Part shown: piece after piece, positions 329-46,775 of the stretch
Layout of the letters: each line of letters starts with the position of its first letter
Position numbering within the stretch: the stretch's first letter is position 1
IMG/VR virus record: IMGVR_UViG_3300025117_000097
Span: 1 to 47,939 of that record
From: a virus
Length of the DNA stretch: 47,939 bases
Strand: one strand, 5' to 3'
Notes under the pieces: model-generated
What the model was told of the DNA's origin: nothing
Seen by the model: only the letters and a program-made list of their open reading frames with translations
The model's database searches: none
Translations under genes and position numbers: made by a program

Positions 329-360
329 AAACCCTAACTAGCCAACTAGTTGGGGTTTTT
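329..360 (+). terminator. Rho-independent terminator built on a CTAG palindrome
   Basis: AAACCCT + AACTAG pairs with CTAGTT + GGGGTTT around loop CCAA, one G-T wobble, and the stem runs into TTTTT at 356-360. It lies between the Bbp16-like gene and the next gene, whose AGGAGG (361-366) begins directly after the T run. Some read-through is likely, since the genes downstream are still virion genes. Confidence 0.7.
336..351. repeat. CTAG palindrome 1 (spacer ccaa), intergenic
   Basis: AACTAG-N4-CTAGTT with perfect arms, forming the core of the terminator hairpin at 329-360. Confidence 0.95.
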
Positions 361-373
361 AGGAGGAATTGGT

Positions 374-787
374 ATGAAATGTGTATGCGCGGAAGACTGT
401 TTCTTGAAACACGAAACGTCAAGACCTATCCATTATCTTCGCGGTGATGTGAAGGAGTTTGAGGAATGCCCCCAGCATTTTATAGCGGCGGCTGGTGCTG
501 TTGTAAAAGAAAAAACCAAAAGTCGTATGGTAAAGGCCGCCGTAGATGCTGGACAAGTGGATAACGCCGGGATTTTCGACTTTGCCTCGGCAACTGAAGA
601 AGTCCTCATGGCCGCTGATTACTCTCTTGAGGATCTGAAAGCTTTTGGCACAATCAACTATGCCGCGAAATTCGGAGACGACGACGACAAGACCAAGATC
701 GTCGCTAAGTTTGTTGATGCCCGGTATCGTAATTATGTTACGAATCAAGGACTTCATGCTTCCGGGGTAACGCTTAATAAATCATAA
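374..787 (+). CDS. Hypothetical virion-cluster protein, 137 aa
   Basis: No domain recognised. ATG 374 is chosen because AGGAGG at 361-366 is correctly spaced from it; the frame is open further upstream only through the terminator hairpin. The N-terminus is Cys-rich (C3, C5, C9) and reads like phage proteins that place a conserved D-C-F and Y-x-R-G-D-x-x-E-F near the start. The middle is helical and charged, with a run of four Asp. It sits between the capsid decoration gene and the tail tube gene, so a head-completion or minor head role is an inference from position. It ends in TAA. Confidence 0.8.
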   Translation: MKCVCAEDCFLKHETSRPIHYLRGDVKEFEECPQHFIAAAGAVVKEKTKSRMVKAAVDAGQVDNAGIFDFASATEEVLMAADYSLEDLKAFGTINYAAKFGDDDDKTKIVAKFVDARYRNYVTNQGLHASGVTLNKS

Positions 788-803
788 TCGTAGGTAATTC
801 GAC

Positions 804-1424
804 ATGCCGACACCAGTTGAAATATGCAACATCGCGTTAATTATGATAGGGGCAGATGAGATAAGGGACTTTGACAAGTCTACTAAAAGACATCGGGCTT
901 GTGAGACGATGTATAACCATCTATTGCCGACTCTTCTAATAACGCATGACTGGTCCTTCGCAAGGGAAGTCGAGCCGTTGCGTCTTCTTGCTGATGGTAT
1001 TCCGAATGAATATGGAACCCCCTATGAGATTCCTGTTGAATGCCTACGGCCAATAGATGTTCTTCCTATTGGTCACGGCCAGAAATGGGAGGTAATAGGG
1101 GGCTACATATACACAAATACCTCTTCACCAAGTTTGAAGTACACAAAAAAGATAACGAACTATTCAAAGTTCAGTACCCCGTTTGTTAACGCTTTGGCTT
1201 TTGCCATAGCTGCCGCCATAGCGCCATCCATAAAACAAAATGAAAAATTCGAAAAAGGTATCGAAACAAAAGCAGCGATTGCACTTGCTGAAGCGCAAGA
1301 GGCTGATGCTCAGATAGGCAATGAGCATAGACATCCAGACACTGATCCGGACAATGACACTTTTGTAAACCCTGACGGAACTGACGCTTTAGGGTTGTTG
1401 GAGCCAAACAATGGGAACTCATAG
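804..1424 (+). CDS. Tail tubular protein A-like (T7 gp11-like), 206 aa
   Basis: The opening (P-x-x-V-E-I-C-N-I-A-L, then G-A-D-E-I with a following R-A-C-E-x-M-Y) is the typical start of podovirus tail tubular protein A (T7 gp11 family), which forms the ring joining portal to nozzle. A W-S-F-A-R motif and a Y-x-x-P-x-E-C-L-R-P segment follow, as in that family, and the size is usual (about 200 aa). The C-terminus is acidic. It ends in TAG and overlaps the next gene by 14 bases, consistent with coupled translation of the two tail-tube proteins. Confidence 0.85.
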   Translation: MPTPVEICNIALIMIGADEIRDFDKSTKRHRACETMYNHLLPTLLITHDWSFAREVEPLRLLADGIPNEYGTPYEIPVECLRPIDVLPIGHGQKWEVIGGYIYTNTSSPSLKYTKKITNYSKFSTPFVNALAFAIAAAIAPSIKQNEKFEKGIETKAAIALAEAQEADAQIGNEHRHPDTDPDNDTFVNPDGTDALGLLEPNNGNS

Positions 1425-3210
1425 GCTGAAAAGAAACTTCACAGGGGGAGAGCTTTCTGATATATTGCTTGGTCAGATTGAAAACGACCGATATAAATAC
1501 GGCTGCCGAAGACTTAAAAACATGATAGTTCGCCCTCAAGGTCCAGTATCAAGGAGAGAGGGCTTTCAATTTATATACGATCTGACATCCCTTATCGGTA
1601 CTTATGGGATGGCCGTAAAGCCACGTATAATACCGTTCGAGTATGACAAAGATAATGCGTATAGCCTTGTGTTCTTTTACAGCACAAATACAAGCGTAAC
1701 GACAACAAGGGTTGTATTTGCTACAGGGACCGGACTCGTCGAAGATCCGACATCCCCTGGCGACCCATACATCTATGAATTTACCGGAACGTTTGAGCTT
1801 GAGAAGATGGTTTGCAAACAATCCGCTGACATATTATTTATCGTTCAACCGAATCGTGTACCCATAGAGTTTAAACGGTTAGACCATGACGAATGGTCCG
1901 CGAACGAAATCTCTTTTACAAGTATGCCCTCTGATTGGAACGCCACGGACGGGTATCCTCAATTTGTAGATTTCTACGAACAAAGGATGGTTTTCGCGTC
2001 TACTCTCGAAAGACCGCAAACGGTATGGTTCTCTAAGTCGGGGGACTTTTTCAATTTCGGTGTAAGCTCGCCAATTGTGGCTTCCGATGCTGTTACTCTT
2101 ACCATGGATAGCGGCACTCAGAACAAGATCCGATGGACGAACACAACTAAGCAACTACTGCTTGGTACTCTCGGGGATGAGTGGTCTATAGCGGGGAGTG
2201 GCTACGAGCCTTTGTCGTTTTCATCGAATAGAACGTCCAGGCATACGAATGTCGGAAGTGAGAAGATAAACGCCCTGATGATAAACAACGTAACACTGTT
2301 TATCGAAAAACATGGCCGCAGGGTCAATCAATTTGTTTTTGACTTCAACTCTGATACCTACGATACCGTTGACTTGTCGGTACTCGCCCCACATATGACT
2401 GATAACAATTCTATCATATCTTGGGCTTATCAACAGTCCCCTTACGGCATAGTATGGTGCATTCGAGACGATGGCGCTATGATCGCCCTGACGTTCAAGA
2501 GGGAGCATAAGGTAGCTGGCTGGCACTTCCATGAAACGGACGGAAAGTTCCTCACTGTTGGCTGCACCCCCGGCTCAAGAGAAGACGATATTTGGGTTGT
2601 CGTTGAGCGGACGATTGATGATAATGTGGTCTGGTACATTGAGAAAAAGGCACCTGAGTACAAGAGCGATTCTATTCTCGATGCGTACTTTCTTGACAGC
2701 CACATAGTATACGATGGTGCATCTGCGACCACGATAACAGGACTCGAACACCTTGAAGGAGAGACAGTTAGCATCCTGGCTAATGGCGGTGTAATGGCTG
2801 ATAGGGTTGTTGAGCTTGGGGCCATAACTCTTGACTATGCTGTAGAAAAGGCTGTCATCGGATTTAAATACGAATCAATACTCGAACCTACTTTACTCGA
2901 TATAAACATGATCGACGGAACACGAATCGGGAGGGTCCAACGGATAACGAAAGTTGATGCGTACATCTATAAATCTATTTTGTTTGAGTATGGTCGTTAT
3001 GATGATTCTGGTAATACTATTGTTACCGAAGAGCTTCCATTTATGTATCCGTCGAATATTACGGGGCAACAAATCCCCCTATTTACTGGGAACAAAGAGT
3101 TTGACTTCCCCGAAGGATACGACCCGGAAACTAGGTTACTAGTTAGACAGATCAAGCCGCTACCCCTCACAGTAATAATGCTAACTGATACAGTGGAGAC
3201 ATACGGATAA
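1411..3210 (+). CDS. Tail tubular protein B-like (T7 gp12-like nozzle), 599 aa
   Basis: The N-terminus (N-F-T-G-G-E-L-S, then R-L-K-N-M-I-V-R-P-Q-G and R-R-E-G) is characteristic of podovirus nozzle or tail tubular protein B relatives. The family forms the distal tail tube through which DNA passes. Later segments (V-D-F-Y-E-Q-R-M-V-F-A, W-F-S-K-S-G-D-F-F-N-F) are also typical. It starts at ATG 1411 with GGAG upstream and overlaps the tail tubular A gene by 14 bases. CTAG palindrome 2 is embedded near the C-terminus. TAA overlaps the next ATG. Confidence 0.85.
   Translation: MGTHRLKRNFTGGELSDILLGQIENDRYKYGCRRLKNMIVRPQGPVSRREGFQFIYDLTSLIGTYGMAVKPRIIPFEYDKDNAYSLVFFYSTNTSVTTTRVVFATGTGLVEDPTSPGDPYIYEFTGTFELEKMVCKQSADILFIVQPNRVPIEFKRLDHDEWSANEISFTSMPSDWNATDGYPQFVDFYEQRMVFASTLERPQTVWFSKSGDFFNFGVSSPIVASDAVTLTMDSGTQNKIRWTNTTKQLLLGTLGDEWSIAGSGYEPLSFSSNRTSRHTNVGSEKINALMINNVTLFIEKHGRRVNQFVFDFNSDTYDTVDLSVLAPHMTDNNSIISWAYQQSPYGIVWCIRDDGAMIALTFKREHKVAGWHFHETDGKFLTVGCTPGSREDDIWVVVERTIDDNVVWYIEKKAPEYKSDSILDAYFLDSHIVYDGASATTITGLEHLEGETVSILANGGVMADRVVELGAITLDYAVEKAVIGFKYESILEPTLLDINMIDGTRIGRVQRITKVDAYIYKSILFEYGRYDDSGNTIVTEELPFMYPSNITGQQIPLFTGNKEFDFPEGYDPETRLLVRQIKPLPLTVIMLTDTVETYG
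3129..3144. repeat. CTAG palindrome 2 (spacer gtta), coding
   Basis: AACTAG-N4-CTAGTT inside the nozzle gene, read as Thr-Arg-Leu-Leu-Val. Confidence 0.95.
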
Positions 3211-6313: not shown

Positions 6314-9300
6314 AAGATATAGATGTATTCGCAATTCCTGACAGTATGCCGAATGATGCTGCAACGGCTATACCACATATGCAACCTGAAGAGGCTGACG
6401 AGGTTCTGAATAGCTTCAGCGATGACTTTGAAATAGTACCAATTGACAGTGGTGCCCCAACGGATACCGAGCAATTTCAAGCTATGCCAGAGCAACCAGT
6501 AGCGGTTACGTCCGCGCCTGATACTGGCCTTGAAAACTTTCGTGATTCATTTGACGCTGCTGTCGCAAAAGAGATCGAGAATACAGAAACGCAACCATTG
6601 GCAACTAGTAGCCTAGTTGAGCCGGTTGGACCTATCCCTGAAGACGCGCCAGTAATAACCCATATCAGCGGAGAGAAGACGGTCGAAGAACTGACTAAAC
6701 TCACCGCTGCAAGGGAGAAGTGGGACTACTTACTTCAAGGTGCTTGGCAAATGTCCGTTACTGGGTCCGTACTTCGCGGAACGTTCGAGATGGAACTTGA
6801 CAAGAACATGGAGGAAAGCCTTAACTTCAAAGATAAGATGACTCGCTTTGCTTTGTCCATGGGGCCAGACTTATGGCTGTTTGGCTTAGGCGCTGCAATA
6901 CCAAAAATTGGTAGCGCTGCACTGGCAAGACTTCCGCAAGCCACTAGAAGTCTTCCTATAATTCAGACCCTAGCGAAAGAGGCTGCACCTATAGAAAAGT
7001 CAATGGCTTCCTTTGGATTCTTCGAAGGCATCCGTCAGATGTATATGAACAAGCTTAAAGCTCAAGGTGAAGGTGATGGAAAAGCCGACTTTGTAGAGCT
7101 TGTTGGTGATGTGTTCATTTCCGCTATAAAGGGATCTGCTACAGGTGCAGCGTTGGGGAAAGGCCACCAAATTCGTAGCTCAATAATGGCCGCTTCTGAG
7201 AACGCTCTAGCAGGAACAGCTAAAGCAACAGCAACATTGATCCCTGAAGCGTCTGCTATAGCGCTACTTCAATCACAACTGCATACCCCTGGCGTACTTC
7301 CCACACTGGAAGACTTCGCGCTTGCTGCTGGTATGATTTTTGGGTTTGAGAGTTTCGGTCATGTAAGAAGACTTGTTGGTAGCATGAAAAGCGGAGTTGT
7401 GCCGCCTGAAGTTCAGCAAGTTATGGACTACTATGTTCGCAATGGTGTTCATCCCGATACTCTCACCCATGATATGCTTTCAAACGTAAGCGTAATGGAA
7501 GATGTTTCCAACGTCCTGAACGAGGGGAGGATACGCATATACGAGATCGACGGAGGGGTAAAACCTGAAATCCATCCAATGGTTGATGAAGTACGGAAAG
7601 CATATCAGGAGGCAAAGAAACCTGTCATGCCTGAAGCTGAACAACCAACGGGCGAAGCTGCAACAGGTCCAGAGGTATTGGAAGCGAAACCTGCACCTGG
7701 AACACCGACCGGAGCGATAACGGCGCAACAGCCTATTCCGCTCCCAAAAGTTCCAGGAATTGAATTTCCTATGCAGTTGTATGCAGGGGAGGTTGTCGAT
7801 ATTATAACACTCCCTGATGGACGAAAAGTCGCTGTACCTACGCATCCAAGCAGAGAGCTTGCTATGTCAGAACATGGCAAGATGGACAGTGCTATGGCTG
7901 TCATTCTTGGGAGCGAGATCCTGAAAGGTATAAAGATAAGAGCAGACAGTCCGGAAACCATAAAACGGAACATTGGCAAAGACACTGTACTTGGATATTT
8001 TTCTCCCCCTGAGTTAGGAAGTAAACTTGCAGAGGTTGAGTTAGCCAAGAGAATACAGAGCGTGAACCGAGCATATAACAAAGCTGTGCGAACAAATGAC
8101 GCAACGAGAGAATCCGCGCTGGCACAAGAGCTTTCCGCGCTCAACGAAAAGATGACGGAAGTTCAGCAAGAGGGGCTTAAAAGCCATAGGGCTTCAGTTG
8201 TTATAAGCAAGATCCTCGGTCAGGCCACCCCCGGCGCTCAACTTGGAACCATACTGCATGAGATAGGTCATGTTTTATCCTACTCCGTCGATCAGTGGAA
8301 CCTTGGGAACTCTCCTGGCGTGTCCTCGTTGTTCTTCAGAACGATGTCGGGATATCCACATCTAATGCAGAGCATTATGGACTTTGCGAATGCAAATCAT
8401 CTTAACTATGCTCAGGTCGAAGCTGAAGCAAAGCTGCTTAGTAGGCTATGGCGCCCTGTATCCGACGCTGCTTTATCTCAAAATCCGGAGTATGCGAACT
8501 ATAGAAACGCTGGCGCTGAGATAATTGCCGACGTTGTTAGCGTAAGCCTTCACAGGCCAGACATTATCCAACAGTACGCACCCTCGCTTCACAAGGCTAT
8601 GGAGCATTTCTATGAAGCCCACCCTGAAGCAAAGGCCCGCGTTGATGGCATGAACGAGATGATGCGAACGGGCGATGAGATCAATGCTGTTATCGAGGCT
8701 TACAAATCTTCGTTTGCCACTGAAGAACAGATGCTCAGGGCAAAGAGAGACATCGATTCAGTGCAGCTTGCAAGACGTACAACCTCTGGCGTATCGAAGA
8801 TGTTCGGCATGATGTTCGATACATTTCAGCCGTTGTGGGATGCAGCCAAAATACCTCTTCGCTTGCAGAACATGATTCAGCGATACCAGTTTCGGGCCAC
8901 GGTAAAGCAGGGATATATATCCCAACTAGACAACCTAGTTACTAAGCCACTGAGGAAGCTCGGGCTTACTAACGAGGAAATCGGGATATTACTTCAGAGT
9001 AGGCGTATAGCGCTTGACCCTGATAGGGCGAACATCTTTAACACCCTGGCAACTGATCCGATGAAGGCTGCTGAAGCCTACGATAGACTTGCAGCCAGAG
9101 ATCCTGCACAGATAAATGCTCTACTTAGCAACTTTCACGAAGTGAGGAAAGCTACCATACTGAAGGAATATGCAAAGTCAGGGTTGTATGGGGATGACTT
9201 TCTTGAAACGATAATGGACAACGATGTATACGCAAGATTCTCAAGCCTTGACCATTTTGAGAAGTGGCTTGAAGAGGGGCGTTATAGCTTGTCAGAGAAT

Positions 9301-11559
9301 CGTGGGTCGCAGACATACTCAACAGCCGAAGCGGAAGCGCTCAAGCAAACGGGTATGATTGGACAAATACGTAACCCGTTAAGCGCTACTATAGAGCTTG
9401 ACTTGTTTATGTATGACGTTCTCTTGCGTGAATCAGCCTTGCGTGGCTTAATAGAACACAGCGTAGACACAGGGGATTTACCTTTTATCCCTGCTGAGTC
9501 ATTTGCAAGCGTACAAAAGCACACTCCTGCCCTTATGAAAGGCTATTCCGCTGCTGAGTTTAAAACCATAACCATACCTACTAGGGTACTCGATCCAAAA
9601 ACAGGGAAAACAATAACGGTTCGTAAGGCGTGGAAAGCGCCCGCTGATATACTAGAACCATTTACCGGAAAGCCTTCAGAAGTTCAGGCGTTTATAAGCG
9701 ACCTTGCTCGATACTCTTTCGGCAAGTTGGCAAAAGAGACACTTACTTCACCGAATAAAGATCGCGGAATGTGGGCGTTTAAATCGGGAGTAAAAGGGAT
9801 AACCAACGTAAATGATAGCTTCCGGTTCTTAACTATTGTTATAGGTGCGTCGTTCCAGGTTGCTAACTTCTTCTCTTATGACCCGTTGAGAACGCTTCAC
9901 CATCTTCCTACACCTGAAGGTGAGATTGGATTGCAGAAAGTAACAGTATTCAAGCACTACCCGGAAGCTCTTTATGACTTACTAAAACAGGGGCTTACTG
10001 GTAATGTATCCCCAAAAATGCAAAGCTTACTTGATCGTGGGATACTGTCAACCAGACAACGTTTCGTTGAGGACTTTGGCAATACTGATCTGTCGGAACG
10101 TCTATTGCACGAATACGGTAGTACAGGGTTCATGTCTAACGTACAGTGGAAAGGTTTGAACTTTCTGAACGCCGTACCAAGAACAATCGGGGAGCTATTA
10201 CAAGTGACCCTGAATGCAACGGATAATACCGCGAAGTATGCCGCCGATTCCTGGATGACAGAGAAAGCGAACCAAGGAAAGCTTAACCTGATGCCTGGAG
10301 AACAGGACGTTATATTGAGGGAGCAGATAGGTTCCCCCGCGTACTCAATAAAGGGATCTGCTTCGTCTCTTGGGAATGCCATATTTCCTTTTATGACTTC
10401 TATCTCTATGGCGCTACGTGGGGATTACAGGGCGTTCAAAAGAAACCCAACGTCTTGGGCTATGGGGGCTGCAACATATATGATTCCGACGATAATCCAG
10501 GGTCTTATGCTGAATGGATTCTTTGACGGTGACGAACCGCAAGATGGACTTGACTCCGTTATTGACGCTACTGTTCCAAGGGTATCAGCACCACCGCCCA
10601 GCTTGATAATGAGAACCCAAACGTCAAGGACTCATAACAGCAACTGGACCTTTCCTGCTGGCATAGATCCGAAGACAGGGGAAGGAACGACTTTCAATGT
10701 CCCTATTCCCCAAAACCCAGCTTTAAGGCTTATGCACGTTACCACACTGGCGCTGATAAACGCCATAGCCGAAGGGCTGAGAGATGACCCTGAAGACAAG
10801 GAGCTTAGAACAGTCGCGGACCAACTGATAGGGGTAGCCACGAGTACAATGCGATCCGTTGTTGACACTGGCGGCTCGGCCACTCCTAGCTTCACCCCCG
10901 CTTTGAGTATACCTGTTGACGCTTACCGTATACTCACACAAGGGAATACTTTTGATGATTTCACCATGAGGATGAAGTATTACAAAGATATTCCTGAAGG
11001 AGAGGAAAGACTTGAAGCCGCTGCGAAGTCGGTAATGGAGAACTTGGGTGTTCCGAAAGAGATACGAAATCTTGACGATTTTGGTGGAGCGCTGAGAGCG
11101 CTTGTTAACCCCACCCCAGAGGAAACCGAACGAACGTTAACTAGTAGGCTAGTTGATGCTGGTGTAACTGCGCCTTTTGTAGGCGGCGGCTGGAATCGCA
11201 TAATCAAGAAAGGCAACCAAGGGCTGGCGGAAAGGAACGCAAAAGAGTTGAAGGAGAAAGCAAGAATCTCTGCACTGAAAGCGAACTCTCTTGATAAAGA
11301 CTTCGAGGCTATTTTAGCGGGGGAGGATGTAGAGCTTGATTCTCTTAAGCACCCTGAACGTGGGCCAATATCAAGGGCCATGATCCTAGCGCATAGAAGG
11401 AAGTGGGCCAGGAAAGAAATAGGAAAAGATAATAAATACTTGCAAAACATTTTGGAAAGTGGTACTAATGCGAGTATAGATGCTGCACGGCAAATGGCAC
11501 CATACTCACCTGAAGCGCGGGAAGCCGTAGAATTTGCGGAAAGTAGGAGGAAAAAATAA
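6310..11559 (+). CDS. Very large internal virion protein with HExxH protease motif, 1749 aa
   Basis: The largest gene, placed where T7 carries gp16, so probably ejected with the DNA. A zinc-metallopeptidase motif is visible: H650-E651-I-G-H654 in an I-L-H-E-I-G-H-V-L context, followed by A-E-I-I-A-D (E737, D741), which could supply the third ligand. The N-terminal 150 residues are acidic and disordered; around 180-210 and 280-300 there are hydrophobic helices. A Pro/Glu linker (about 430-490) precedes the peptidase region. No lytic transglycosylase motif was seen, so the protease may replace that wall-opening activity or process core proteins. CTAG palindromes 3, 4 and 5 lie inside. TAA overlaps the next ATG. 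Confidence 0.8.
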   Translation: MKDIDVFAIPDSMPNDAATAIPHMQPEEADEVLNSFSDDFEIVPIDSGAPTDTEQFQAMPEQPVAVTSAPDTGLENFRDSFDAAVAKEIENTETQPLATSSLVEPVGPIPEDAPVITHISGEKTVEELTKLTAAREKWDYLLQGAWQMSVTGSVLRGTFEMELDKNMEESLNFKDKMTRFALSMGPDLWLFGLGAAIPKIGSAALARLPQATRSLPIIQTLAKEAAPIEKSMASFGFFEGIRQMYMNKLKAQGEGDGKADFVELVGDVFISAIKGSATGAALGKGHQIRSSIMAASENALAGTAKATATLIPEASAIALLQSQLHTPGVLPTLEDFALAAGMIFGFESFGHVRRLVGSMKSGVVPPEVQQVMDYYVRNGVHPDTLTHDMLSNVSVMEDVSNVLNEGRIRIYEIDGGVKPEIHPMVDEVRKAYQEAKKPVMPEAEQPTGEAATGPEVLEAKPAPGTPTGAITAQQPIPLPKVPGIEFPMQLYAGEVVDIITLPDGRKVAVPTHPSRELAMSEHGKMDSAMAVILGSEILKGIKIRADSPETIKRNIGKDTVLGYFSPPELGSKLAEVELAKRIQSVNRAYNKAVRTNDATRESALAQELSALNEKMTEVQQEGLKSHRASVVISKILGQATPGAQLGTILHEIGHVLSYSVDQWNLGNSPGVSSLFFRTMSGYPHLMQSIMDFANANHLNYAQVEAEAKLLSRLWRPVSDAALSQNPEYANYRNAGAEIIADVVSVSLHRPDIIQQYAPSLHKAMEHFYEAHPEAKARVDGMNEMMRTGDEINAVIEAYKSSFATEEQMLRAKRDIDSVQLARRTTSGVSKMFGMMFDTFQPLWDAAKIPLRLQNMIQRYQFRATVKQGYISQLDNLVTKPLRKLGLTNEEIGILLQSRRIALDPDRANIFNTLATDPMKAAEAYDRLAARDPAQINALLSNFHEVRKATILKEYAKSGLYGDDFLETIMDNDVYARFSSLDHFEKWLEEGRYSLSENRGSQTYSTAEAEALKQTGMIGQIRNPLSATIELDLFMYDVLLRESALRGLIEHSVDTGDLPFIPAESFASVQKHTPALMKGYSAAEFKTITIPTRVLDPKTGKTITVRKAWKAPADILEPFTGKPSEVQAFISDLARYSFGKLAKETLTSPNKDRGMWAFKSGVKGITNVNDSFRFLTIVIGASFQVANFFSYDPLRTLHHLPTPEGEIGLQKVTVFKHYPEALYDLLKQGLTGNVSPKMQSLLDRGILSTRQRFVEDFGNTDLSERLLHEYGSTGFMSNVQWKGLNFLNAVPRTIGELLQVTLNATDNTAKYAADSWMTEKANQGKLNLMPGEQDVILREQIGSPAYSIKGSASSLGNAIFPFMTSISMALRGDYRAFKRNPTSWAMGAATYMIPTIIQGLMLNGFFDGDEPQDGLDSVIDATVPRVSAPPPSLIMRTQTSRTHNSNWTFPAGIDPKTGEGTTFNVPIPQNPALRLMHVTTLALINAIAEGLRDDPEDKELRTVADQLIGVATSTMRSVVDTGGSATPSFTPALSIPVDAYRILTQGNTFDDFTMRMKYYKDIPEGEERLEAAAKSVMENLGVPKEIRNLDDFGGALRALVNPTPEETERTLTSRLVDAGVTAPFVGGGWNRIIKKGNQGLAERNAKELKEKARISALKANSLDKDFEAILAGEDVELDSLKHPERGPISRAMILAHRRKWARKEIGKDNKYLQNILESGTNASIDAARQMAPYSPEAREAVEFAESRRKK
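6603..6618. repeat. CTAG palindrome 3 (spacer tagc), coding
   Basis: AACTAG-N4-CTAGTT in the large internal virion gene, read as Thr-Ser-Ser-Leu-Val. Confidence 0.95.
8924..8940. repeat. CTAG palindrome 4 (5-base spacer acaac), coding
   Basis: AACTAG-N5-CTAGTT in the large internal virion gene, read as Gln-Leu-Asp-Asn-Leu-Val. Confidence 0.93.
11139..11154. repeat. CTAG palindrome 5 (spacer tagg), coding
   Basis: AACTAG-N4-CTAGTT near the end of the large internal virion gene, read as Thr-Ser-Arg-Leu-Val. Confidence 0.95.
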
Positions 11560-14849: not shown

Positions 14850-14865
14850 AACTAGTGTACTAGTT
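14850..14865. repeat. CTAG palindrome 6 (spacer tgta), promoter-proximal leader
   Basis: Extended arms TTAACTAG/CTAGTTAA (14848-14867), just downstream of the -10 and directly before AAGGAGG of the lipoprotein gene. Placed like an operator in the early transcribed region. Confidence 0.95.
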
Positions 14866-16137: not shown

Positions 16138-16364
16138 AAAATCCATGCACCATAATGATTACAAAGTGCTGTGTTTGTAATCGTTACAAGGATGAAAAAG
16201 GGCACTATAGGGTTTTTCTACCTACGTGCCCTTTTATTGTCATATCCCATGGGTACTGTAAAGAATGCTCTGACGCAGTTCTCCATGAGATAAGATCTCG
16301 TCAACTAGGTAAGCTAGTTAACGCACTTCACAAATATTTGGGTCTCCTTTTATCATCCCGATAG
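16134..16364 (+). CDS. Small zinc-ribbon-like protein, 76 aa
   Basis: Starts at GTG 16134 in a GTGA overlap with the previous stop. It contains C-C-x-x-C followed by a K-D-E-K-G segment and later S-H-G-Y-C-K-E-C, a pattern seen in many short bacterial and phage zinc-binding proteins. CTAG palindrome 7 is inside (Gln-Leu-Gly-Lys-Leu-Val). A perfect 10-bp inverted repeat (16196-16235) also lies within it. Its end overlaps the convergent endolysin gene by 37 bases. TAG stop. Confidence 0.65.
   Translation: MKNPCTIMITKCCVCNRYKDEKGHYRVFLPTCPFIVISHGYCKECSDAVLHEIRSRQLGKLVNALHKYLGLLLSSR
16196..16235. terminator. Candidate bidirectional terminator at the convergence of the two operons
   Basis: AAAAGGGCAC (16196-16205) and GTGCCCTTTT (16226-16235) form a perfect 10-bp stem with a 20-base loop, A-rich on one side and T-rich on the other. 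It lies between the endolysin stop and the lysis cassette, where two converging units must end, although inside a short gene. Confidence 0.45.
16303..16319. repeat. CTAG palindrome 7 (5-base spacer gtaag), coding, convergent junction
   Basis: AACTAG-N5-CTAGTT inside the small zinc-ribbon gene and eight bases beyond the endolysin stop. Confidence 0.93.
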
Positions 16365-17470: not shown

Positions 17471-17812
17471 TCACCCCATCTTTCTAACTAGTTGTGCTAG
17501 TTGTTCTATGTCATATTCAAGCTCTTCGATGATTGTATACAGTTCGCTCTTTTGCCGCTCCAATACATTTACATACTCCAACAAGCTCTGAAGCGCTGGC
17601 TTCAATTTATCATTGGCAAGAAAGTTTTCAGCAACAGCCGAACGTATCCCAGCCGTCTTCAGCCGGTCCCTGTATGTAGTACCGATGCTCTTATGAAGAG
17701 GCTGAACGATCTTTGCGTTAGCCTTGTCGGTTGTTATACACAGCTCACACTTGGGGCTTGCTGGGTGCTTATCCCTTCCGCAATCAGGGCATTTCAAATC
17801 TTGTGCTTTCAT
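17471..17812 (-). CDS. Zinc-ribbon plus coiled-coil protein, 113 aa
   Basis: N-terminal C8-P-D-C and C22-x-x-C form a short zinc ribbon. Residues about 75-110 form a heptad-rich coiled coil, which contains CTAG palindrome 8 (Gln-Leu-Ala-Gln-Leu-Val). AGGAGGG overlaps the previous gene's stop and is ideally spaced from ATG 17812. Possibly a small nucleic-acid-binding accessory factor; function unknown. Confidence 0.75.
   Translation of the reverse strand: MKAQDLKCPDCGRDKHPASPKCELCITTDKANAKIVQPLHKSIGTTYRDRLKTAGIRSAVAENFLANDKLKPALQSLLEYVNVLERQKSELYTIIEELEYDIEQLAQLVRKMG
17486..17502. repeat. CTAG palindrome 8 (5-base spacer ttgtg), coding
   Basis: AACTAG-N5-CTAGTT at the end of the coiled-coil gene; on the minus strand it reads Gln-Leu-Ala-Gln-Leu-Val. 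Confidence 0.93.
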
Positions 17813-18307: not shown

Positions 18308-18323
18308 AACTAGCCTCCTAGTT
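18308..18323. repeat. CTAG palindrome 9 (spacer cctc) with Shine-Dalgarno in the loop
   Basis: Minus strand reads T-TAACTAG-GAGG-CTAGTT-ATG. The helicase stop TAA overlaps the left arm, the loop is a Shine-Dalgarno GAGG, and the start codon of the next gene follows the right arm directly. Confidence 0.95.
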
Positions 18324-19984: not shown

Positions 19985-20000
19985 AACTAGTGAGCTAGTT
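19985..20000. repeat. CTAG palindrome 10 (spacer tgag), gene junction
   Basis: On the minus strand the upstream stop TAA overlaps the left arm (TAACTAG) and the right arm runs into the next gene's AGGAGG. Confidence 0.95.
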
Positions 20001-21185: not shown

Positions 21186-21201
21186 AACTAGCCTCCTAGT
21201 T
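21186..21201. repeat. CTAG palindrome 11 (spacer cctc) with Shine-Dalgarno in the loop
   Basis: Minus strand reads TAACTAG-GAGG-CTAGTT-ATG: polymerase stop TAA on the left arm, ribosome site in the loop, next start codon after the right arm. Same spacer as palindrome 9. Confidence 0.95.
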
Positions 21202-23343: not shown

Positions 23344-23375
23344 CCGCCACTAACTAGTTGTCTAGTTAGTGGCGG
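23344..23375 (-). terminator. 14-bp perfect hairpin after the ssDNA-binding gene
   Basis: CCGCCACT plus AACTAG pairs exactly with CTAGTT plus AGTGGCGG around loop TTGT, nine bases beyond the stop of the DUF2815 gene. No T run follows, so it could be an attenuator, an RNA-stability element or a protein site as well as a terminator. Confidence 0.5.
23352..23367. repeat. CTAG palindrome 13 (spacer ttgt), intergenic hairpin core
   Basis: Core of the 14-bp stem at 23344-23375. Confidence 0.95.
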
Positions 23376-28816: not shown

Positions 28817-28832
28817 AACTAGTTAGCTAGTT
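28817..28832. repeat. CTAG palindrome 17 (spacer ttag), gene end and promoter-proximal
   Basis: Supplies the TAG stop (28819-28821, minus strand) of the 49-aa gene and lies immediately upstream of the primase promoter. Confidence 0.95.
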
Positions 28833-29441: not shown

Positions 29442-29457
29442 AACTAGTCCGCTAGTT
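29442..29457. repeat. CTAG palindrome 18 (spacer tccg), supplies a stop codon
   Basis: On the minus strand AAC-TAG of the left arm is the last codon and stop of the VWA gene; the right arm abuts the next gene's AGGGAGA. Confidence 0.95.
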
Positions 29458-30902: not shown

Positions 30903-30918
30903 AACTAGCACCCTAGTT
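30903..30918. repeat. CTAG palindrome 19 (spacer cacc): stop codon, ribosome site and start in one element
   Basis: Minus strand reads AAC-TAG-GGTG-CTAGTT-ATG. The MoxR gene ends at the TAG, the spacer carries the next Shine-Dalgarno, and the next ATG follows directly. Confidence 0.95.
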
Positions 30919-32364: not shown

Positions 32365-32398
32365 AATCTTACCAACTAGTTGTCTAGTTGGTAAGATT
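32365..32398 (-). terminator. 15-bp perfect hairpin between two leftward genes
   Basis: AATCTTACC plus AACTAG pairs exactly with CTAGTT plus GGTAAGATT around loop TTGT. It follows the stop of the Lys/Ala-rich gene by 18 bases. No T run, so attenuator, processing site or protein-binding site are alternatives. Confidence 0.5.
32374..32389. repeat. CTAG palindrome 20 (spacer ttgt), intergenic hairpin core
   Basis: Core of the 15-bp stem at 32365-32398; the same spacer occurs in palindrome 13. Confidence 0.95.
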
Positions 32399-32416: not shown

Positions 32417-33544
32417 TTACCCAACAAGGTTCAAAGCTTTCTGGATCTCTTCATCGGCGCAAAGCACGTTGCGGAAGTTGTCATCCATGGCGAGTATACA
32501 AGCTTTCGCCAAAGTACAAAGTTGTTCCTGCGTCATGCCGGAAACGTCCATTTGTGCGTTGCTGGTTGCCGTTGTAGTGGTCTTGGTAGTAACGTTGCTA
32601 GTCTGTGCGGCAAGTCCAGCGGCTTCAAGTGCGGCTTCCTCAAGACGCTTTCGTTCAAGCTCTTTCTTAGCGGCTTCCCGTTTTTCGATGTTTGCAGGGT
32701 TGAGCATGGTAAATCGTTCCGATGCCCGGTTGACCATATGGCCCCAAGAAATCAGATTGTTGTCACGTTCCGTCTGGTACAATTTCTGGTATCCCCATGC
32801 CGTTCCGTCTTCTTTTACGGGCCATACCTTTTCAGCTACGAGATCCGCAACAAGATCTTTCACCGACCAGTTGTAACGACCGCCAAGCTCTTTGTATCCG
32901 AGTTCGGCATTGCTTTCGGCGGAAAATGCAGCTTTCAGGGCGGTGCTAGCTTTGCCAGATTGGAGAGTCTTAATCATGCTTTCCGGTGCTCCTTTGACTT
33001 CGACGGGCGGGAGAAGAGGGGCGGGAGTGTTACGAACTGCATCCCGCTTCGCTTTGGCTTCAGCCTTCTCTGCATCTTTCTTCGCTTTGGCAGCGGCTTT
33101 TTCCGCATCTTTGGTGGCTTTGGCATCCGCCTTGACCTTATCGGCAGCGGCTTTTTCCTCTGCTTTCTTTGCAGCAGCAGCGGCTTTTTCTGCGTCTTTG
33201 GTGGCTTTTCCGGCATTCTTCGCGGCTTCTTTTTCGGCTTTGGCTTTGGCTTCCGCTTCTTTTTTGATTCTGGCGTTATTTTCCGCCTCAGCTTTCAGGG
33301 CGGCGAGTTTGGCTTTTGCTGGGTTCAAGGGTTCAGGGTTTGATACCGTTGCCGGTACAATATTAATGTCAACGTCTGAATCATCATTTGCGGCATTGGT
33401 ATCGATGTTGGCTCTTTCGGCAGCTATACGTTCATCGACGCTAACGAGTGTAGGGGATTGAGCAGCGGCGGCGAGTGCGGCAGATGGCGGTGCGGGAACG
33501 GGAATGGTTGCCGGTTTATTGGTTTCGGTCGTTATGATTGCCAT
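32417..33544 (-). CDS. Lys/Ala/Glu-rich coiled-coil protein, 375 aa
   Basis: Residues about 75-170 are a long run of A-K-A-E-K-A-like heptads, predicted as a single stable helix or coiled coil; the N-terminal 70 residues are Pro/Ala/Asp-rich and disordered; the C-terminal part (about 185-375) is folded and has a V-K-D-L-V-A-D-L-V segment with a W-x-V-x-x-D-G-T-A-W loop, then a Thr-rich linker and a final helical domain. This resembles phage abundant early proteins but no family was recognised. AGGAG precedes ATG 33544; a short promoterless gap separates it from the upstream gene. Confidence 0.75.
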   Translation of the reverse strand: MAIITTETNKPATIPVPAPPSAALAAAAQSPTLVSVDERIAAERANIDTNAANDDSDVDINIVPATVSNPEPLNPAKAKLAALKAEAENNARIKKEAEAKAKAEKEAAKNAGKATKDAEKAAAAAKKAEEKAAADKVKADAKATKDAEKAAAKAKKDAEKAEAKAKRDAVRNTPAPLLPPVEVKGAPESMIKTLQSGKASTALKAAFSAESNAELGYKELGGRYNWSVKDLVADLVAEKVWPVKEDGTAWGYQKLYQTERDNNLISWGHMVNRASERFTMLNPANIEKREAAKKELERKRLEEAALEAAGLAAQTSNVTTKTTTTATSNAQMDVSGMTQEQLCTLAKACILAMDDNFRNVLCADEEIQKALNLVG

Positions 33545-33830: not shown

Positions 33831-33846
33831 AACTAGACAGCTAGTT
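33831..33846. repeat. CTAG palindrome 21 (spacer acag), intergenic
   Basis: Lies between the pentapeptide-repeat gene stop and the next gene, three bases past the TAA. Confidence 0.95.
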
Positions 33847-34331: not shown

Positions 34332-34347
34332 AACTAGTTGACTAGTT
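34332..34347. repeat. CTAG palindrome 22 (spacer ttga), intergenic
   Basis: AACTAG-N4-CTAGTT; the stem extends by CA/TG (CAACTAG/CTAGTTG). It lies four bases past the stop of the 132-aa gene. Confidence 0.95.
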
Positions 34348-35978: not shown

Positions 35979-35993
35979 TGTTGCATTGCAACA
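35979..35993. promoter_or_regulatory. Perfect 15-bp palindrome TGTTGCA-T-TGCAACA
   Basis: Seven-base arms around a single T, next to a TTGACA hexamer in the AT-rich tract. Typical size and symmetry for a dimeric repressor or initiator site. Confidence 0.5.
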
Positions 35994-36209
35994 AAAATAT
36001 TTATTTCTAATAAAAACTTTTAAAATGGCAAAAAAATATACACTCTATACACGAAGTATACATTATGCAAGCGATATCAAGAGGTTAAGCCAGTGCTATC
36101 CTATGTGCTGACCTCTTATATGTGCGATCTCAAGGACTTACGTAAGATATTGTGTTAGGCATATCCCCAGATCTATATATTAGCAGCTACTATCCTGGTC
36201 TACCCTTCT

Positions 36210-36377
36210 ATGGATTCATACCCCATGCATCGACAGTCTATGGATTGTGAGTCTATGGACTGTAGATCTATGGGTTGTGAATGCATGGACTGTGGATCTA
36301 TGGCTGAAACGGAGGGGGTGGGGGGAAAAACGGGCGCGTCATATATCTATATTAGACCCACACACGAAATTTTATAA
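36210..36377 (+). other. Possible Cys-rich microprotein over iteron array B (55 aa)
   Basis: A frame from ATG 36210 to TAA 36377 reads array B as pentapeptides M-D-C-E-S, M-D-C-R-S, M-G-C-E-C, M-D-C-G-S. It shares a Q-S-[IM]-D-C-E-S start with the frame over array A. No clear ribosome site; low confidence. Confidence 0.2.
36236..36305. repeat. 15-bp iteron array B (4 or more copies)
   Basis: Direct repeats of [GA]TCTATGGATTGTGA and variants (units at 36236, 36251, 36266, 36281 and a partial at 36296). Another partial unit lies at about 36207. Confidence 0.8.
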
Positions 36378-36465
36378 AATTTTAGGATGTGTCAAATTAA
36401 CACAAAAATAACATAGAAATTTTATAAAATTTTAGGCTGCGTCAAATTAGTATAAAAATACCACA
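36366..36465. repeat. Tandem 50-bp direct repeat upstream of the rightward promoter
   Basis: Two units of exactly 50 bases (36366-36415 and 36416-36465) identical at 43 positions. Each starts with the palindrome AAATTTTATAAAATTT and carries a 15-mer (GTGTCAAATTAACAC or GCGTCAAATTAGTAT) related to the element on the promoter. Confidence 0.85.
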
Positions 36466-36485
36466 AAAATAATATAAAAATTTTC

Positions 36486-36514
36486 TGGACAAAAAATTAA
36501 CTACGTGTTAAAAT
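36486..36514 (+). promoter_or_regulatory. Rightward promoter with operator on the -10
   Basis: TGGACA (36486-36491), 17-base spacer, TAAAAT (36509-36514). The perfect inverted repeat GTGTTA-AAA-TAACAC (36505-36519) covers the -10, so binding there would block transcription of the regulator gene 30 bases downstream, an autoregulatory arrangement. Confidence 0.6.
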
Positions 36515-36548
36515 AACACAAAATCAGACCACCTTGGAATATACAATT

Positions 36549-36863
36549 ATGAATGAGAACAGCGTCCCGTCCCCCGCCGAACTAAAAAACCAATTTATCA
36601 TTCCGTGGAATTTGGCGGATATGATGTCGCCATGGCTTGGCCTATCCACAAGCATGTCCTACCAGATCTTAAGGCAAGGAAGAAAGCCCTCTATACGAAC
36701 CAAGAATAAGCTCAGGGAGCGGTTAGGCATACCGACTGAAATATGGAATAAAAACATTGACGAACTGGCCGAATATCTATATATTATGTGGTATGAGTCT
36801 ACTCAGGAGAGGGACCAGCAAGCAACTGGAGAACAACTGCGGAAACTACAAGAACTCTTTTAA
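36549..36863 (+). CDS. Helix-turn-helix transcriptional regulator, 104 aa
   Basis: Residues about 18-60 fit a Cro/CI-type helix-turn-helix: L-A-D-M-M followed by L-G-L-S-T-S-M-S-Y-Q-I-L-R-Q-G-R-K-P-S, then a L-x-E-R-L-G-I-P terminus. ATG 36549 is preferred to TTG 36534. It is the first gene of the rightward unit and lies next to operator-like repeats, so it probably controls its own promoter and perhaps the leftward one. Whether it also binds the CTAG palindromes is unknown. The C-terminal tail is charged and helical. Confidence 0.75.
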   Translation: MNENSVPSPAELKNQFIIPWNLADMMSPWLGLSTSMSYQILRQGRKPSIRTKNKLRERLGIPTEIWNKNIDELAEYLYIMWYESTQERDQQATGEQLRKLQELF

Positions 36864-36875
36864 GGAGCAAGAACG

Positions 36876-37070
36876 ATGACGATGAAAGCGTTAGTACCAA
36901 TTATTTTTGTTTTAATAGTCCTGTCAATACTATTAACTAGGTCGCTAGTTAACTCTGGACAGGGGATGGGACCAGGACCGGGGATAGGAATAAGTTACAT
37001 TGCTCCGGATGCTGTGCTGTTTAATACTGATACCGTAACATTTAATGGCGATGCCGCCGTGACATGGTGA
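36876..37070 (+). CDS. Small membrane-anchored or secreted protein, 64 aa
   Basis: An N-terminal hydrophobic helix (about residues 7-20: I-I-F-V-L-I-V-L-S-I-L-L) is followed by CTAG palindrome 23 (Thr-Arg-Ser-Leu-Val), a Gly/Pro-rich stretch and a beta-like tail. AAGGAG precedes ATG 36876. No family recognised. Confidence 0.6.
   Translation: MTMKALVPIIFVLIVLSILLTRSLVNSGQGMGPGPGIGISYIAPDAVLFNTDTVTFNGDAAVTW
36935..36950. repeat. CTAG palindrome 23 (spacer gtcg), coding
   Basis: Extended arms TTAACTAG/CTAGTTAA in the small membrane protein gene, read as Thr-Arg-Ser-Leu-Val right after its hydrophobic segment. Confidence 0.95.
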
Positions 37071-40308: not shown

Positions 40309-40324
40309 AACTAGGTGACTAGTT
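40309..40324. repeat. CTAG palindrome 24 (spacer gtga) with Shine-Dalgarno in the loop
   Basis: Plus strand reads AACTAG-GTGA-CTAGTT-ATG. The AGGTGA overlapping the spacer is the only ribosome site before ATG 40325, and it lies between the arms. Same arrangement as at 18308, 21186 and 30903 on the other strand. Confidence 0.95.
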
Positions 40325-42432: not shown

Positions 42433-42965
42433 ATATTAAGTTGATAGATATAAAACACATGTATGCATCTGATAGTAAGGTAGCAGAAGGACTGATGAGA
42501 GACTATACGCATGAAATCATGTTGGACGGTTTGCTGCATCATGCCTTCTATGACGGATTTGTCCATAATTTCGATACATTGATGAGCTTTTCCCTTGACA
42601 AATCCAACATCTTCATGTTAGTGTGGGATAACGACATAAAAAAGGTTGTCGCACATATTTTCTTGAATGGGTTTGAGGCGCTTGTATGCAGAGCGCACTT
42701 CTCAGTATTAAGAATCGCACATGGGAGAGAATATTCTGTGAGATTGGGAAAAGAAGTCATATGGAAGATATTCGAATTGAAAAGAGACAACTCGAATATT
42801 CCGTTAACTAGGACGCTAGTTGGCCTTACCCCCGTTCAAAATAAAAACGCTTGTAGGTTTGCAAAACTAATAGGCTTCAAGGAAGTTGCGATACTTCCAA
42901 AGTCCTGCTATATCTCTTTAACAGGTAGCTTTGAATCCGGTATGCTGTCGGTATTAACCAAGTAA
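42429..42965 (+). CDS. GNAT-like acetyltransferase, 178 aa
   Basis: C-terminal V-G-L-T-P-V-Q-N-K-N-A-C-R-F-A-K-L-I-G-F-K-E-V matches the last motif of GNAT acetyltransferases (N-x-x-A-x-x-[FL]-x-x-x-G-F). Related GNAT-like proteins (for example T7 gp13) sit between packaging and head genes in podoviruses, possibly acting on assembly or host proteins. ATGA overlap with the terminase. CTAG palindrome 25 (Thr-Arg-Thr-Leu-Val) lies just before the C-terminal motif. Confidence 0.7.
   Translation: MNIKLIDIKHMYASDSKVAEGLMRDYTHEIMLDGLLHHAFYDGFVHNFDTLMSFSLDKSNIFMLVWDNDIKKVVAHIFLNGFEALVCRAHFSVLRIAHGREYSVRLGKEVIWKIFELKRDNSNIPLTRTLVGLTPVQNKNACRFAKLIGFKEVAILPKSCYISLTGSFESGMLSVLTK
42806..42821. repeat. 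CTAG palindrome 25 (spacer gacg), coding
   Basis: AACTAG-N4-CTAGTT in the GNAT-like gene, read as Thr-Arg-Thr-Leu-Val. Confidence 0.95.
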
Positions 42966-43683: not shown

Positions 43684-44013
43684 ATGGGAGGAAAAGGAGG
43701 GAGCAACACTGCTCCTGTATATACACCGCCACCGCAAGAGATGAATTTTGAACCCATGATGGCCGCTATGGGTGAAATGATGCTGATGGCTTCCAGTATG
43801 AACGCTCCAAAATATGAGCCGCCACCAGCTATCATTGAAGCCCCTACTATCGATTGGACCGCCAAGCAGAAAGAGGTTGCCAGCAAAGCCAATATTGACA
43901 TAACTGAAGAGATGAAGCGGCGAAGGGGTAGAGCGTCCACCGTGTTAACTAGTCCGCTAGTTAACGAGGAAGATCCTTTGACGGTATTCGCTACAGCGAA
44001 GAAGGGGCAATAA
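43684..44013 (+). CDS. Small portal-associated protein, 109 aa
   Basis: A Gly-rich start (M-G-G-K-G-G-S) and Met/Ala-rich helical body; a similar G-rich small gene precedes portal genes in BPP-1-like phages. CTAG palindrome 26 sits near the C-terminus (Thr-Ser-Pro-Leu-Val). GGGGGC provides the ribosome site and TAATG joins it to the portal gene. Confidence 0.6.
   Translation: MGGKGGSNTAPVYTPPPQEMNFEPMMAAMGEMMLMASSMNAPKYEPPPAIIEAPTIDWTAKQKEVASKANIDITEEMKRRRGRASTVLTSPLVNEEDPLTVFATAKKGQ
43947..43962. repeat. CTAG palindrome 26 (spacer tccg), coding
   Basis: Extended arms GTTAACTAG/CTAGTTAAC (43944-43965), read as Thr-Ser-Pro-Leu-Val in the small portal-associated gene. Confidence 0.95.
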
Positions 44014-44843: not shown

Positions 44844-44846
44844 GCC

Positions 44847-45716
44847 ATGGGTATCGGTCTTGGCTCTGATGTCCTGCCGCTTTCAAAGAGGCTTCAGGAA
44901 ATGGACAAATCTTTTATGATGGCTACTCATAAGGCTGTTGACCCGCCTATGAATATACCGTCAAAAATGCGTGGCAATGTTAATCTTCTTCCAGGTGGAA
45001 GGAACTGGACAACCAATCCAGATCATAAAATAGAGCCTATTGAAAATCGTGGGTTCGAGTACATGGGGGTATCCAATGCGTCAGAGCGAGTTGAAAATCA
45101 TATTAAAAAAATGTGCTATAACGACGTATTTCTTACAGGTATGCGTGATCCTAATGCTTCCCCACTCAAAGCCCGTCAGGTTGACGCTCAAGAAGATGAA
45201 GGCGTCATGCGACTTGGGCCGATGATAGGGAGGCTCTATAAAGAGCTTTTGACCCCGATAGTCGGGCGCTGCATGGGAAGCATGTTTAGAAGAGGGCTGC
45301 TCCCCCCGATAGATCCTGAGTTGCTTTTGACAACTGGCGGGATAAACGTAATTCTTATCGGCCCGTTGGCTCAACAGCAAAAACTTATCGAGGTTCGTGG
45401 TATCCAAAACTTCTTCAGTTTCCTCGGAGGGCTTGTTCCGTTCGATGACTCAGCAAGAGACAAGATCAATATCGACCGTACCATTGATGAGGTTGCCGAT
45501 ATGACAGGCGTACCTAGCGCCATTCTTGCAACTGATGAAGAGTTGAAGGCTGCACGCCAAGCAAGGATGCAAGCTGCAATGGCTCAAAAACAAAAAGAGG
45601 ATGCTATTCTGAAGCAACAGATGAACAATGAGCAGACATCCGTTCAAGCGTCTTCCGCTAAAGACTACGCTGCTGCTGGCGTAGACATTCAATCCGTCTT
45701 AGGGGGCGGCATGTAA
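44847..45716 (+). CDS. Portal (head-tail connector) C-terminal half, 289 aa
   Basis: Continues the portal family from G-I-G-L-G-S-D-V-L-P-L (compare G-x-G-P-G-x-x-A-L-P in intact relatives), then V-D-P-P-M-N-I-P-S and a helical C-terminus. ATG 44847 is three bases past the TAG, in the same frame, with GGGG about nine bases upstream, so reinitiation or read-through are both possible. If neither occurs the phage would lack a portal. Confidence 0.82.
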   Translation: MGIGLGSDVLPLSKRLQEMDKSFMMATHKAVDPPMNIPSKMRGNVNLLPGGRNWTTNPDHKIEPIENRGFEYMGVSNASERVENHIKKMCYNDVFLTGMRDPNASPLKARQVDAQEDEGVMRLGPMIGRLYKELLTPIVGRCMGSMFRRGLLPPIDPELLLTTGGINVILIGPLAQQQKLIEVRGIQNFFSFLGGLVPFDDSARDKINIDRTIDEVADMTGVPSAILATDEELKAARQARMQAAMAQKQKEDAILKQQMNNEQTSVQASSAKDYAAAGVDIQSVLGGGM

Positions 45717-46090
45717 TGAGAAAGCGAAAGGTTACGGATCGTTCCATTGATGAAACGGCTGCTGTGAATGCGATGCAGGAAAAAATAATCGCGAAGGAGC
45801 GATTAATTAAGCTTGCAAATTATGAGAATTTGTTACATAATAACGTAATTGCACAAGACCTATTATGGGACGTTCTGGACATGACCGGATTCAACTCAAT
45901 ACATCATAATCCAGACAACACTTTAATATTAGCGGAGGGAAAACGGCATGTTGGGTACGAGATAATAGACCTACTGAACGAAATCGACCCGATGCTATAT
46001 CCCACTCTTATAATTCAACGAGGAAAACGCCATGGCTACAGAGAACACGATCCCGATGCCGGACTTGACGATAACGAATCCGAGTCCTGA
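45716..46090 (+). CDS. Bbp19-like structural protein, 124 aa
   Basis: Residues about 45-100 follow the Bbp19 family pattern: L-L-W-D-V-L-D-M-T-G, N-x-x-x-x-x-x-A-E-G-K-R-x-V-G, then L-L-N-E-I-D-P-x-L-Y. In BPP-1-like phages this gene lies between portal and scaffold, as here. The 59-base overlap with the next gene is unusually long. TAATG joins it to the portal. Confidence 0.75.
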   Translation: MRKRKVTDRSIDETAAVNAMQEKIIAKERLIKLANYENLLHNNVIAQDLLWDVLDMTGFNSIHHNPDNTLILAEGKRHVGYEIIDLLNEIDPMLYPTLIIQRGKRHGYREHDPDAGLDDNESES

Positions 46091-46775
46091 AGCTGCCGCA
46101 CCAGTACAGCCTGAAGCTGCCGCACCAGTACAGCCTGAAGCTACCGCACCAGTACAGCCTGAAGCTGCCGCACCTGCTGCACCTACAACCGATGATCCTC
46201 TTGGGACCGGGGAGCCAACTAGTCAACCTAGTTGGCTTGATTCTCTGCCAGAAGATTTACGGAAGAATGAGAAGTTGCTTGGGTTTAAGAGCGTAGAAGA
46301 GTTAGCGAAGGCTCATGCCGACTCGCAACCCGCCCCTACGATCCCCGAAGCCGACGCTTATAAACTTCCAGAAAGCTTCCCGATTAAAGATATCGGGAAG
46401 TGGGCCAACAAGGTCGGGCTGACTCAGCAACAGCTTGAACACATTATCAACCTTGACAACCATCTCAATACGGAGCGAATGAATAGCGTGGATAAGGTAT
46501 ATGCTGCCGGGCTTAACACGCTGTATACTGAATGGGGCGAAGCGAAGACAGAGAATATCAGGCTGGCGAAAGCTGCCCTTTCTCACTTCGACGACACCGG
46601 GGAGTTAAAGACTATGCTTAACGCCTCGAAAGCTGGCAACCATCCTGTTGTTGTTAACTTTTTTGCTAAGCTTGGGAAAAAGTTGATGAAAGAGGACTGG
46701 TTTGTAGCGAACGGAGGAAACTCCAATAGCGGCACTGAGATTTCGGCGGCTGATACAATTTTTGACGGGAAGTAA
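46032..46775 (+). CDS. Probable scaffolding protein, 247 aa
   Basis: Lies directly before the major capsid gene. The N-terminal region (about 20-48) has repeats of A-P-V-Q-P-E-A-A; then CTAG palindrome 27; the middle has W-L-D-S-L-P-E-D-L-R and L-G-F-K-S-V-E-E-L-A-K-A, a pattern commonly seen at the start of phage scaffold proteins, followed by helices. GAGG before ATG 46032. Assists prohead assembly. Confidence 0.8.
   Translation: MATENTIPMPDLTITNPSPEAAAPVQPEAAAPVQPEATAPVQPEAAAPAAPTTDDPLGTGEPTSQPSWLDSLPEDLRKNEKLLGFKSVEELAKAHADSQPAPTIPEADAYKLPESFPIKDIGKWANKVGLTQQQLEHIINLDNHLNTERMNSVDKVYAAGLNTLYTEWGEAKTENIRLAKAALSHFDDTGELKTMLNASKAGNHPVVVNFFAKLGKKLMKEDWFVANGGNSNSGTEISAADTIFDGK
46090..46172. 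repeat. 27-base tandem repeat in the scaffold gene
   Basis: Units of about 27 bases (gctgccgcaccagtacagcctgaa type, here split for length: gctgccgcacca then gtacagcctgaa plus one codon) encode the A-P-V-Q-P-E-A repeats of the scaffold N-terminus. Confidence 0.7.
46217..46233. repeat. CTAG palindrome 27 (5-base spacer tcaac), coding
   Basis: AACTAG-N5-CTAGTT in the scaffold gene, in a frame reading Thr-Ser-Gln-Pro-Ser, the only copy in this phase. Arms extend to GCCAACTAG/CTAGTTGGC. Confidence 0.93.

Follow-up and report, generated by a model that had tools for sequence, protein, structure and literature searches.

Why should one short palindrome recur along an entire viral genome, inside genes as well as between them? 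The question is raised by IMG/VR record IMGVR_UViG_3300025117_000097, a viral DNA of 47,939 bp analysed over its full length (the window), in which a pattern search finds 27 exact copies of the inverted repeat 5′-AACTAG-n4/5-CTAGTT-3′ (Table 1). A first-pass annotation, made from the letters alone, had listed these copies and divided them into 23 with a 4-base and four with a 5-base spacer; each copy was recovered where it had been placed, and the division was reproduced. Its chance expectation of almost zero also held, as 100 dinucleotide shuffles produced no copy. The next most frequent inverted repeat of the same class (6-base arms, 3- to 5-base loop) occurs twice, and the window has a single near-miss with one or two mismatches and a 4- or 5-base spacer, AACTAGCGCACCTACTT at 13873. 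We propose that the palindromes are very probably docking sites at which a DNA-binding protein attaches along the entire length of the viral DNA.

The base flanking each arm is a pyrimidine (Y) in 52 of the 54 half-sites; therefore, the unit is 5′-YAACTAG-n4/5-CTAGTTR-3′, where R is a purine. The spacers vary, as the first-pass annotation had said, but not freely, since A is rare next to CTAG. CTAG, which it had described as usually rare in bacterial DNA, is depleted in the window overall (101 observed versus 184 expected), and the sites account for 54 of these 101 occurrences.

Motif scans of viral contigs returned mostly chance matches, and true relatives were picked out by their proteins. 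These relatives are few and some are only fragments; the complete genomes are the window (G000) and G001 (L177, 48,131 bp), whose terminase and capsid proteins are 69% and 74% identical to those of the window and whose other shared proteins are about 30-64% identical. G001 carries 31 copies of 5′-ACTAG-n3..5-CTAGT-3′. Further motif-bearing relatives are G005 (15 copies), G006 (10), G004 (4), L275 (4), L137 (3) and G007, with three good copies in 28.6 kb. Across the clade, the family takes the form 5′-YRACTAG-n3..5-CTAGTYR-3′ with the invariant core ACTAG..CTAGT. Thus, the earlier statement that all 12 arm bases are invariant is true of the window, where the outermost arm base is A in 54 of 54 half-sites, but not of the relatives, where this base is R/Y (G 59, A 36, T 1 in G001, G006, G004 and L137 pooled). 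The motif is absent from the distant relatives G008, G009, G011-G016, vir555, BPP-1 and phiV10 and from fourteen bacterial genome loci; given these motif-free outgroups, the array is a feature of one clade. A DNA-level search of annotated phages gave no match, and no description of the motif was found in the literature. As a separate observation, L275 is a 5.7-kb contig from a different sample whose 69% identical terminase and four sites make it a clade member.

The comparison of G001 with G005, which have diverged by about 16% over their aligned bases, shows what is being maintained. At the 13 sites common to both, the core has changed at 0 of 130 positions, versus 99 of 753 in the 30-base flanks (P=8e-8); spacers have changed at 7 of 52 positions (core versus spacer, P=1e-4), and the outer arm bases at 5 of 26, every change being R to R or Y to Y. 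The core ACTAG/CTAGT is under strong purifying selection in coding and non-coding places alike. The signal is therefore strongly selected, as had been supposed at first sight, and relatives do not lack copies at random: near relatives retain their sites, while more distant clade members keep the site density with the positions moved. In a 5.2-kb gene, G000, G001, G005 and G006 have 3, 4, 5 and 3 sites, mostly at different positions, and only two intragenic positions are common to G000 and G001, both in the 972-aa gene. Site positions turn over by point mutation while the even spacing persists.

Many near-identical copies in one genome could also be left by a short palindromic element that moves or copies itself. 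Nevertheless, the spacers differ from copy to copy, the flanks are unrelated beyond one base, and the core is under purifying selection. Moreover, in coding regions, homologues without a site align mostly without gaps, and one gain or loss took place through point substitutions; therefore, the family is not a mobile element, an origin that we regard as extremely unlikely.

The variable arm and flank positions indicate the level at which selection acts. The first-pass annotation had also suggested RNA hairpins, which in mRNA would serve processing, translation control or termination. Stems of 6 bp with loops of 3-5 bases are in keeping with this idea, as are some copies that immediately precede a start codon and carry GAGG as the loop. 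However, the outer arm position pairs G-C 21, A-T 11, G-T 10 and A-C 19 times, with left and right independent (P=0.79); A..C mismatches are commoner than G.U, and the equally good pairs C..G and T..A are never seen. The flanking Y/R position is likewise independent between left and right (P=0.46). Since the variable bases of the two halves do not co-vary, it is double-stranded DNA that is selected, not an RNA hairpin, and each half is read independently, as by a dimer on DNA. Longer complementary arms are found at the intergenic copies 336, 23352, 32374 and G001 19684 and at the intragenic copy 46217, and G001 19684 shows compensatory outer changes between strains, as a hairpin would. About half of the copies, on the other hand, lie in coding sequence, and the Rfam and tRNA scans were both empty. 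We therefore consider the hairpin role very unlikely.

The placement of the sites is regular. Relative to a null of uniform placement that ignores gene layout, the copies of the window (mean spacing 1.78 kb) are more evenly spaced than random (coefficient of variation 0.49 versus 0.95, P=0.00015), as are those of G001 (mean spacing 1.55 kb, P=0.0033). Based on the simple open reading frame (ORF) calls used throughout, 12 of the 27 window sites touch non-coding DNA (8% expected) and 9 of 27 stand directly ahead of start codons (4.5% expected). Intragenic copies with a 4-base spacer all lie in the one frame without TAG, where they encode T-[S/R]-x-L-V in unrelated proteins, and spacers of 3 and 5 bases open the other reading frames. 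In the two complete genomes, these off-length spacers are intragenic in 12 of 13 cases, versus 20 of 45 for the 4-base spacer (P=0.003); thus, the preferred spacer is 4 bp long, and a departure from this length is tolerated where the coding sequence requires it. Scans for sigma-70 promoters and terminators gave no more matches than in shuffles and so provided no link between sites and promoters. The control region at 34348-36934, where the transcription units diverge, has neither an exact copy nor one with 1-2 mismatches and a 4- or 5-base spacer. This region contains other repeats, about eight of 15 nt and of the TATGGATTGTGAATC type at 35760-35830 and 36190-36310, and 50-nt AT-rich ones at 36366-36484, which are possibly a replication origin or operators; the equivalent divergent region of G001 has repeats of different sequence.

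Dispersed repressor sites are known from Cluster A mycobacteriophages, which have up to about 30 stoperators whose motifs drift between relatives along with their repressors (PMC6550527). By analogy, the palindromes would be transcription roadblocks for a phage repressor and would silence the genome. The window array is similar to the Cluster A (L5-like) arrays in number and spread, with 27 copies here and 31 in G001, and the preference of its sites for gene junctions and start codons, the shift in half-site preference from the uniform A of the window to the G/A mix of its relatives and the XRE-like fold of the candidate protein described below are also what such a system would give. Nevertheless, Cluster A stoperators lack symmetry, and most of them point in the direction of transcription, whereas the window site is a symmetric dyad with no orientation relative to it. 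Cluster A stoperators belong to temperate phages, are bound by the immunity repressor and occur near the early promoter as well, while the window has no copy in its control region, where divergent promoters must lie. Integrase, excisionase and ParABS had no match among the scanned proteins of either complete genome, although distant ones could escape. Of the stoperator role suggested in the first-pass annotation, the dispersed number stands; the orientation, the control-region copies and the lysogeny genes do not fit, and we consider this role unlikely.

The reader could instead be a host DNA-binding protein, such as a TrpR-like regulator, titrated or used by the phage. The core ACTAG-n4-CTAGT is identical to that of the E. 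coli trp operator, as confirmed directly upstream of trpL. TrpR sites occur at few promoters and have a fixed 4-bp centre, whereas the centre in the window clade is of 3, 4 or 5 bp and varied in sequence. In addition, 27-31 evenly spread copies, half of them intragenic, are unlike regulatory use, the motif is clade-specific with a half-site preference that varies among members, and no TrpR homologue (PF01371) was matched in five phage records. Phages can carry host regulator sites, CtrA being an example (PMC9437464), which provides a precedent for a reading that we nonetheless hold to be quite improbable.

Other palindromic systems resemble the array in part. The operators of P22 c2 and other XRE-type proteins are dyads about 18 bp long whose centre measures 4 bp, and they cluster at one control region; the window site, at 18 bp, is a similar dyad with an XRE-like candidate reader, but its array is genome-wide. 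The matS, SlmA, parS and KorB sites are short palindromes scattered in a replicon, also within genes, and read by one protein. The window shares this scatter; however, its motif is unrelated in sequence, and searches by PHROGs family found neither ParA nor ParB. No window protein matched the ParB family in PHROGs or Pfam, several shared proteins remaining unclassified.

The first-pass annotation saw no obvious partner protein, a view that we revise, since the conserved gene of a small helix-turn-helix (HTH) protein at 36534-36863 is a reasonable candidate. Few unclassified non-structural genes are common to both complete genomes. The HTH gene is present in G000, G001, G005 and G003/G007 and absent from relatives that lack the motif: G008, in which the contig spans this locus, and G011-G015. 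It adjoins the terminase genes, with four extra ORFs between them in the window. The protein has no significant match in Pfam or PHROGs, and its sequence finds only weak double-homeobox matches in the PDB. Its structure model (predicted local distance difference test, pLDDT, of 77) shows a helix-turn-helix followed by a C-terminal helix of some length, and its best fold neighbours are of the XRE, Cro, C-protein, HigA and P22 c2 types, all non-significant. The 375-aa protein encoded by ORF 32417-33544 is a second, weaker candidate; it was not found in the motif-free G011-G015, and the model of its C-terminal part is of low confidence (pLDDT 57).

These results suggest the following mechanism. 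A dimeric, sequence-specific protein would bind double-stranded DNA through the half-site YRACTAG, with a centre of 4 bp and a tolerance of 3 or 5 bp, and the feature maintained would be one site per 1.5-1.8 kb, not one per promoter. The most likely binder would be the phage's own XRE-like HTH protein, whose long C-terminal helix may stabilise the dimer or link one bound dimer to another. Once bound along the genome, the protein would create a nucleoprotein array by which the phage DNA is organised, bridged or condensed, possibly with transcription blocked at the occupied sites; we infer genome architecture or silencing as the function of the array. Of the roles proposed in the first-pass annotation, a condensation or centromere-like one may thus apply, as may silencing.

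The elements of this proposal differ in strength. The data establish the sites themselves, their even spacing, the strong purifying selection on the core, DNA in place of RNA as the level of selection, the turnover by point mutation and the confinement to one clade. The reader is very probably a dimeric protein. It is probably encoded by the phage, and its identity with the product of ORF 36534-36863 has about an even chance. An array-type role is somewhat favoured over a set of local operators, and we see the overall reading of a genome-wide, dimer-bound array with the phage HTH protein as its reader as evenly poised between right and wrong. Several observations weigh against it. The start-codon enrichment is compatible with gene-level regulation, and copies with longer arms may also act as terminators. 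The best PDB fold match of the HTH model has an E-value of 0.64, the model itself being of medium confidence, and the co-occurrence of HTH gene and motif comprises about three lineages of one clade. The 375-aa protein could be the reader in its place, as, possibly, could a host protein.

More tentatively, a non-temperate podovirus lineage may have evolved a sequence-coded genome organisation in which a small phage protein bridges or condenses the chromosome at evenly spaced dyads, an array kept up by turnover in coding as well as non-coding DNA. If true, a chromosome bridged or condensed in this way could serve, for example, packaging, protection or orderly transcription. To our knowledge, few phages have a protein-binding site across the entire genome, and the stoperator case is bound up with lysogeny. 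The array described here is symmetric and half intragenic, with a strongly conserved core, an empty promoter region and no lysogeny genes detected, and it raises the question of whether chromosome-scale DNA architecture can be coded in the sequence of a tailed phage.

Table 1. Palindromic sites and candidate reader proteins in the 47,939-bp window (n4 and n5, spacer length).
Feature	Coordinates	Strand	Spacer	Location or description	Shared with
Site 1	336..351		n4 CCAA	intergenic, within longer terminator-like hairpin	
Site 2	3129..3144		n4 GTTA	tail tubular protein B gene	L137, G006 (same codon position)
Site 3	6603..6618		n4 TAGC	1749-aa gene	
Site 4	8924..8940		n5 ACAAC	1749-aa gene	
Site 5	11139..11154		n4 TAGG	1749-aa gene	
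Site 6	14850..14865		n4 TGTA	intergenic, start codon 13 nt further on	
Site 7	16303..16319		n5 GTAAG	within small ORF, close to convergent gene junction	
Site 8	17486..17502		n5 TTGTG	ORF 17471-17812, near its 3′ end	
Site 9	18308..18323		n4, GAGG on minus strand	gene junction, start codon immediately after	
Site 10	19985..20000		n4 TGAG	gene junction	
Site 11	21186..21201		n4, GAGG on minus strand	gene junction, start codon immediately after	
Site 12	22808..22823		n4 GCGG	DNA polymerase gene	
Site 13	23352..23367		n4 TTGT	intergenic; complementary arms extended	
Site 14	24854..24869		n4 ATGC	exonuclease gene	
Site 15	26807..26822		n4 CCAG	972-aa primase/helicase-like gene	G001 (same position and spacer)
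Site 16	27956..27971		n4 TCCG	972-aa primase/helicase-like gene	G001 (same position and spacer)
Site 17	28817..28832		n4 TTAG	intergenic/ORF edge	
Site 18	29442..29457		n4 TCCG	gene junction	
Site 19	30903..30918		n4 CACC	ATPase gene, 3′ end	
Site 20	32374..32389		n4 TTGT	gene junction; complementary arms extended	
Site 21	33831..33846		n4 ACAG	gene junction	
Site 22	34332..34347		n4 TTGA	gene junction; final site ahead of divergent control region	
Site 23	36935..36950		n4 GTCG	small ORF; first site beyond control region	
Site 24	40309..40324		n4 GTGA	junction, TerS-like gene start codon immediately after	
Site 25	42806..42821		n4 GACG	GNAT-like gene	G004 (position)
Site 26	43947..43962		n4 TCCG	109-aa gene	G004 (position)
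Site 27	46217..46233		n5 TCAAC	scaffold-like gene	G002, G004, G006 (position)
XRE-like helix-turn-helix protein	36534..36863	+		109 aa, putative site-binding protein	
375-aa protein	32417..33544	-		second, weaker candidate	G001

Mapped as a circle, the window is essentially complete because contig L001, which is 99.99% identical to it, runs through both of its ends, with a 7-bp overlap. Its virion genes (terminase, connector, scaffold, capsid and tail) identify a podovirus of the BPP-1/phiV10-like type, and its other genes include those of a DNA polymerase, an exonuclease, a Gp2.5-like single-stranded DNA-binding protein and an SNF2-like helicase. The capsid protein shares 44-51% identity with its counterparts in BPP-1, BcepC6B, phiV10-type phages and vir555, and about 45% with those of BPP-1 (Rauchvirus) and phiV10/epsilon15 (Uetakevirus). 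The gene plan is similar to that of BPP-1; however, BPP-1 and phiV10/epsilon15 possess integrase genes and lack the motif, whereas no integrase was detected in the window.

Motif-like copies in unrelated contigs were set aside. Those of L338/L339/L348 and L332 are local repeats, and L014 has three that lie in an AT-rich stretch of about 120 bp. An unrelated phage has an operator-like cluster in which TGACTAG-n4-CTAGTCA occurs four times in about 190 bp (L348 1805-1990, L339 6239-6424, L338 11447-11632). An unrelated virus, G017/L404 (IMGVR_UViG_3300001594_001545, 13575-27583), has 19 copies, all of them centred on ACGT, and this fixed spacer makes them look like a spread repeat; its 14-bp palindrome, ACTAGACGTCTAGT, often stands immediately 3′ of stop codons.

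Other genes of the window also deserve mention. A distant thymidylate synthase-like protein is encoded at 16735-17466 on the minus strand of this 48-kb phage. At 29452-31953, also on the minus strand, a MoxR-like ATPase and a neighbouring 383-aa protein form a pair conserved with G001; the latter is labelled 'HNH endonuclease' in PHROGs, yet its sequence resembles the VWA/metallopeptidase type. Finally, the pentapeptide-repeat-like gene at 33850-34308 (GADLRGA..) is encoded by a 15-nt tandem repeat of 12.6 copies.

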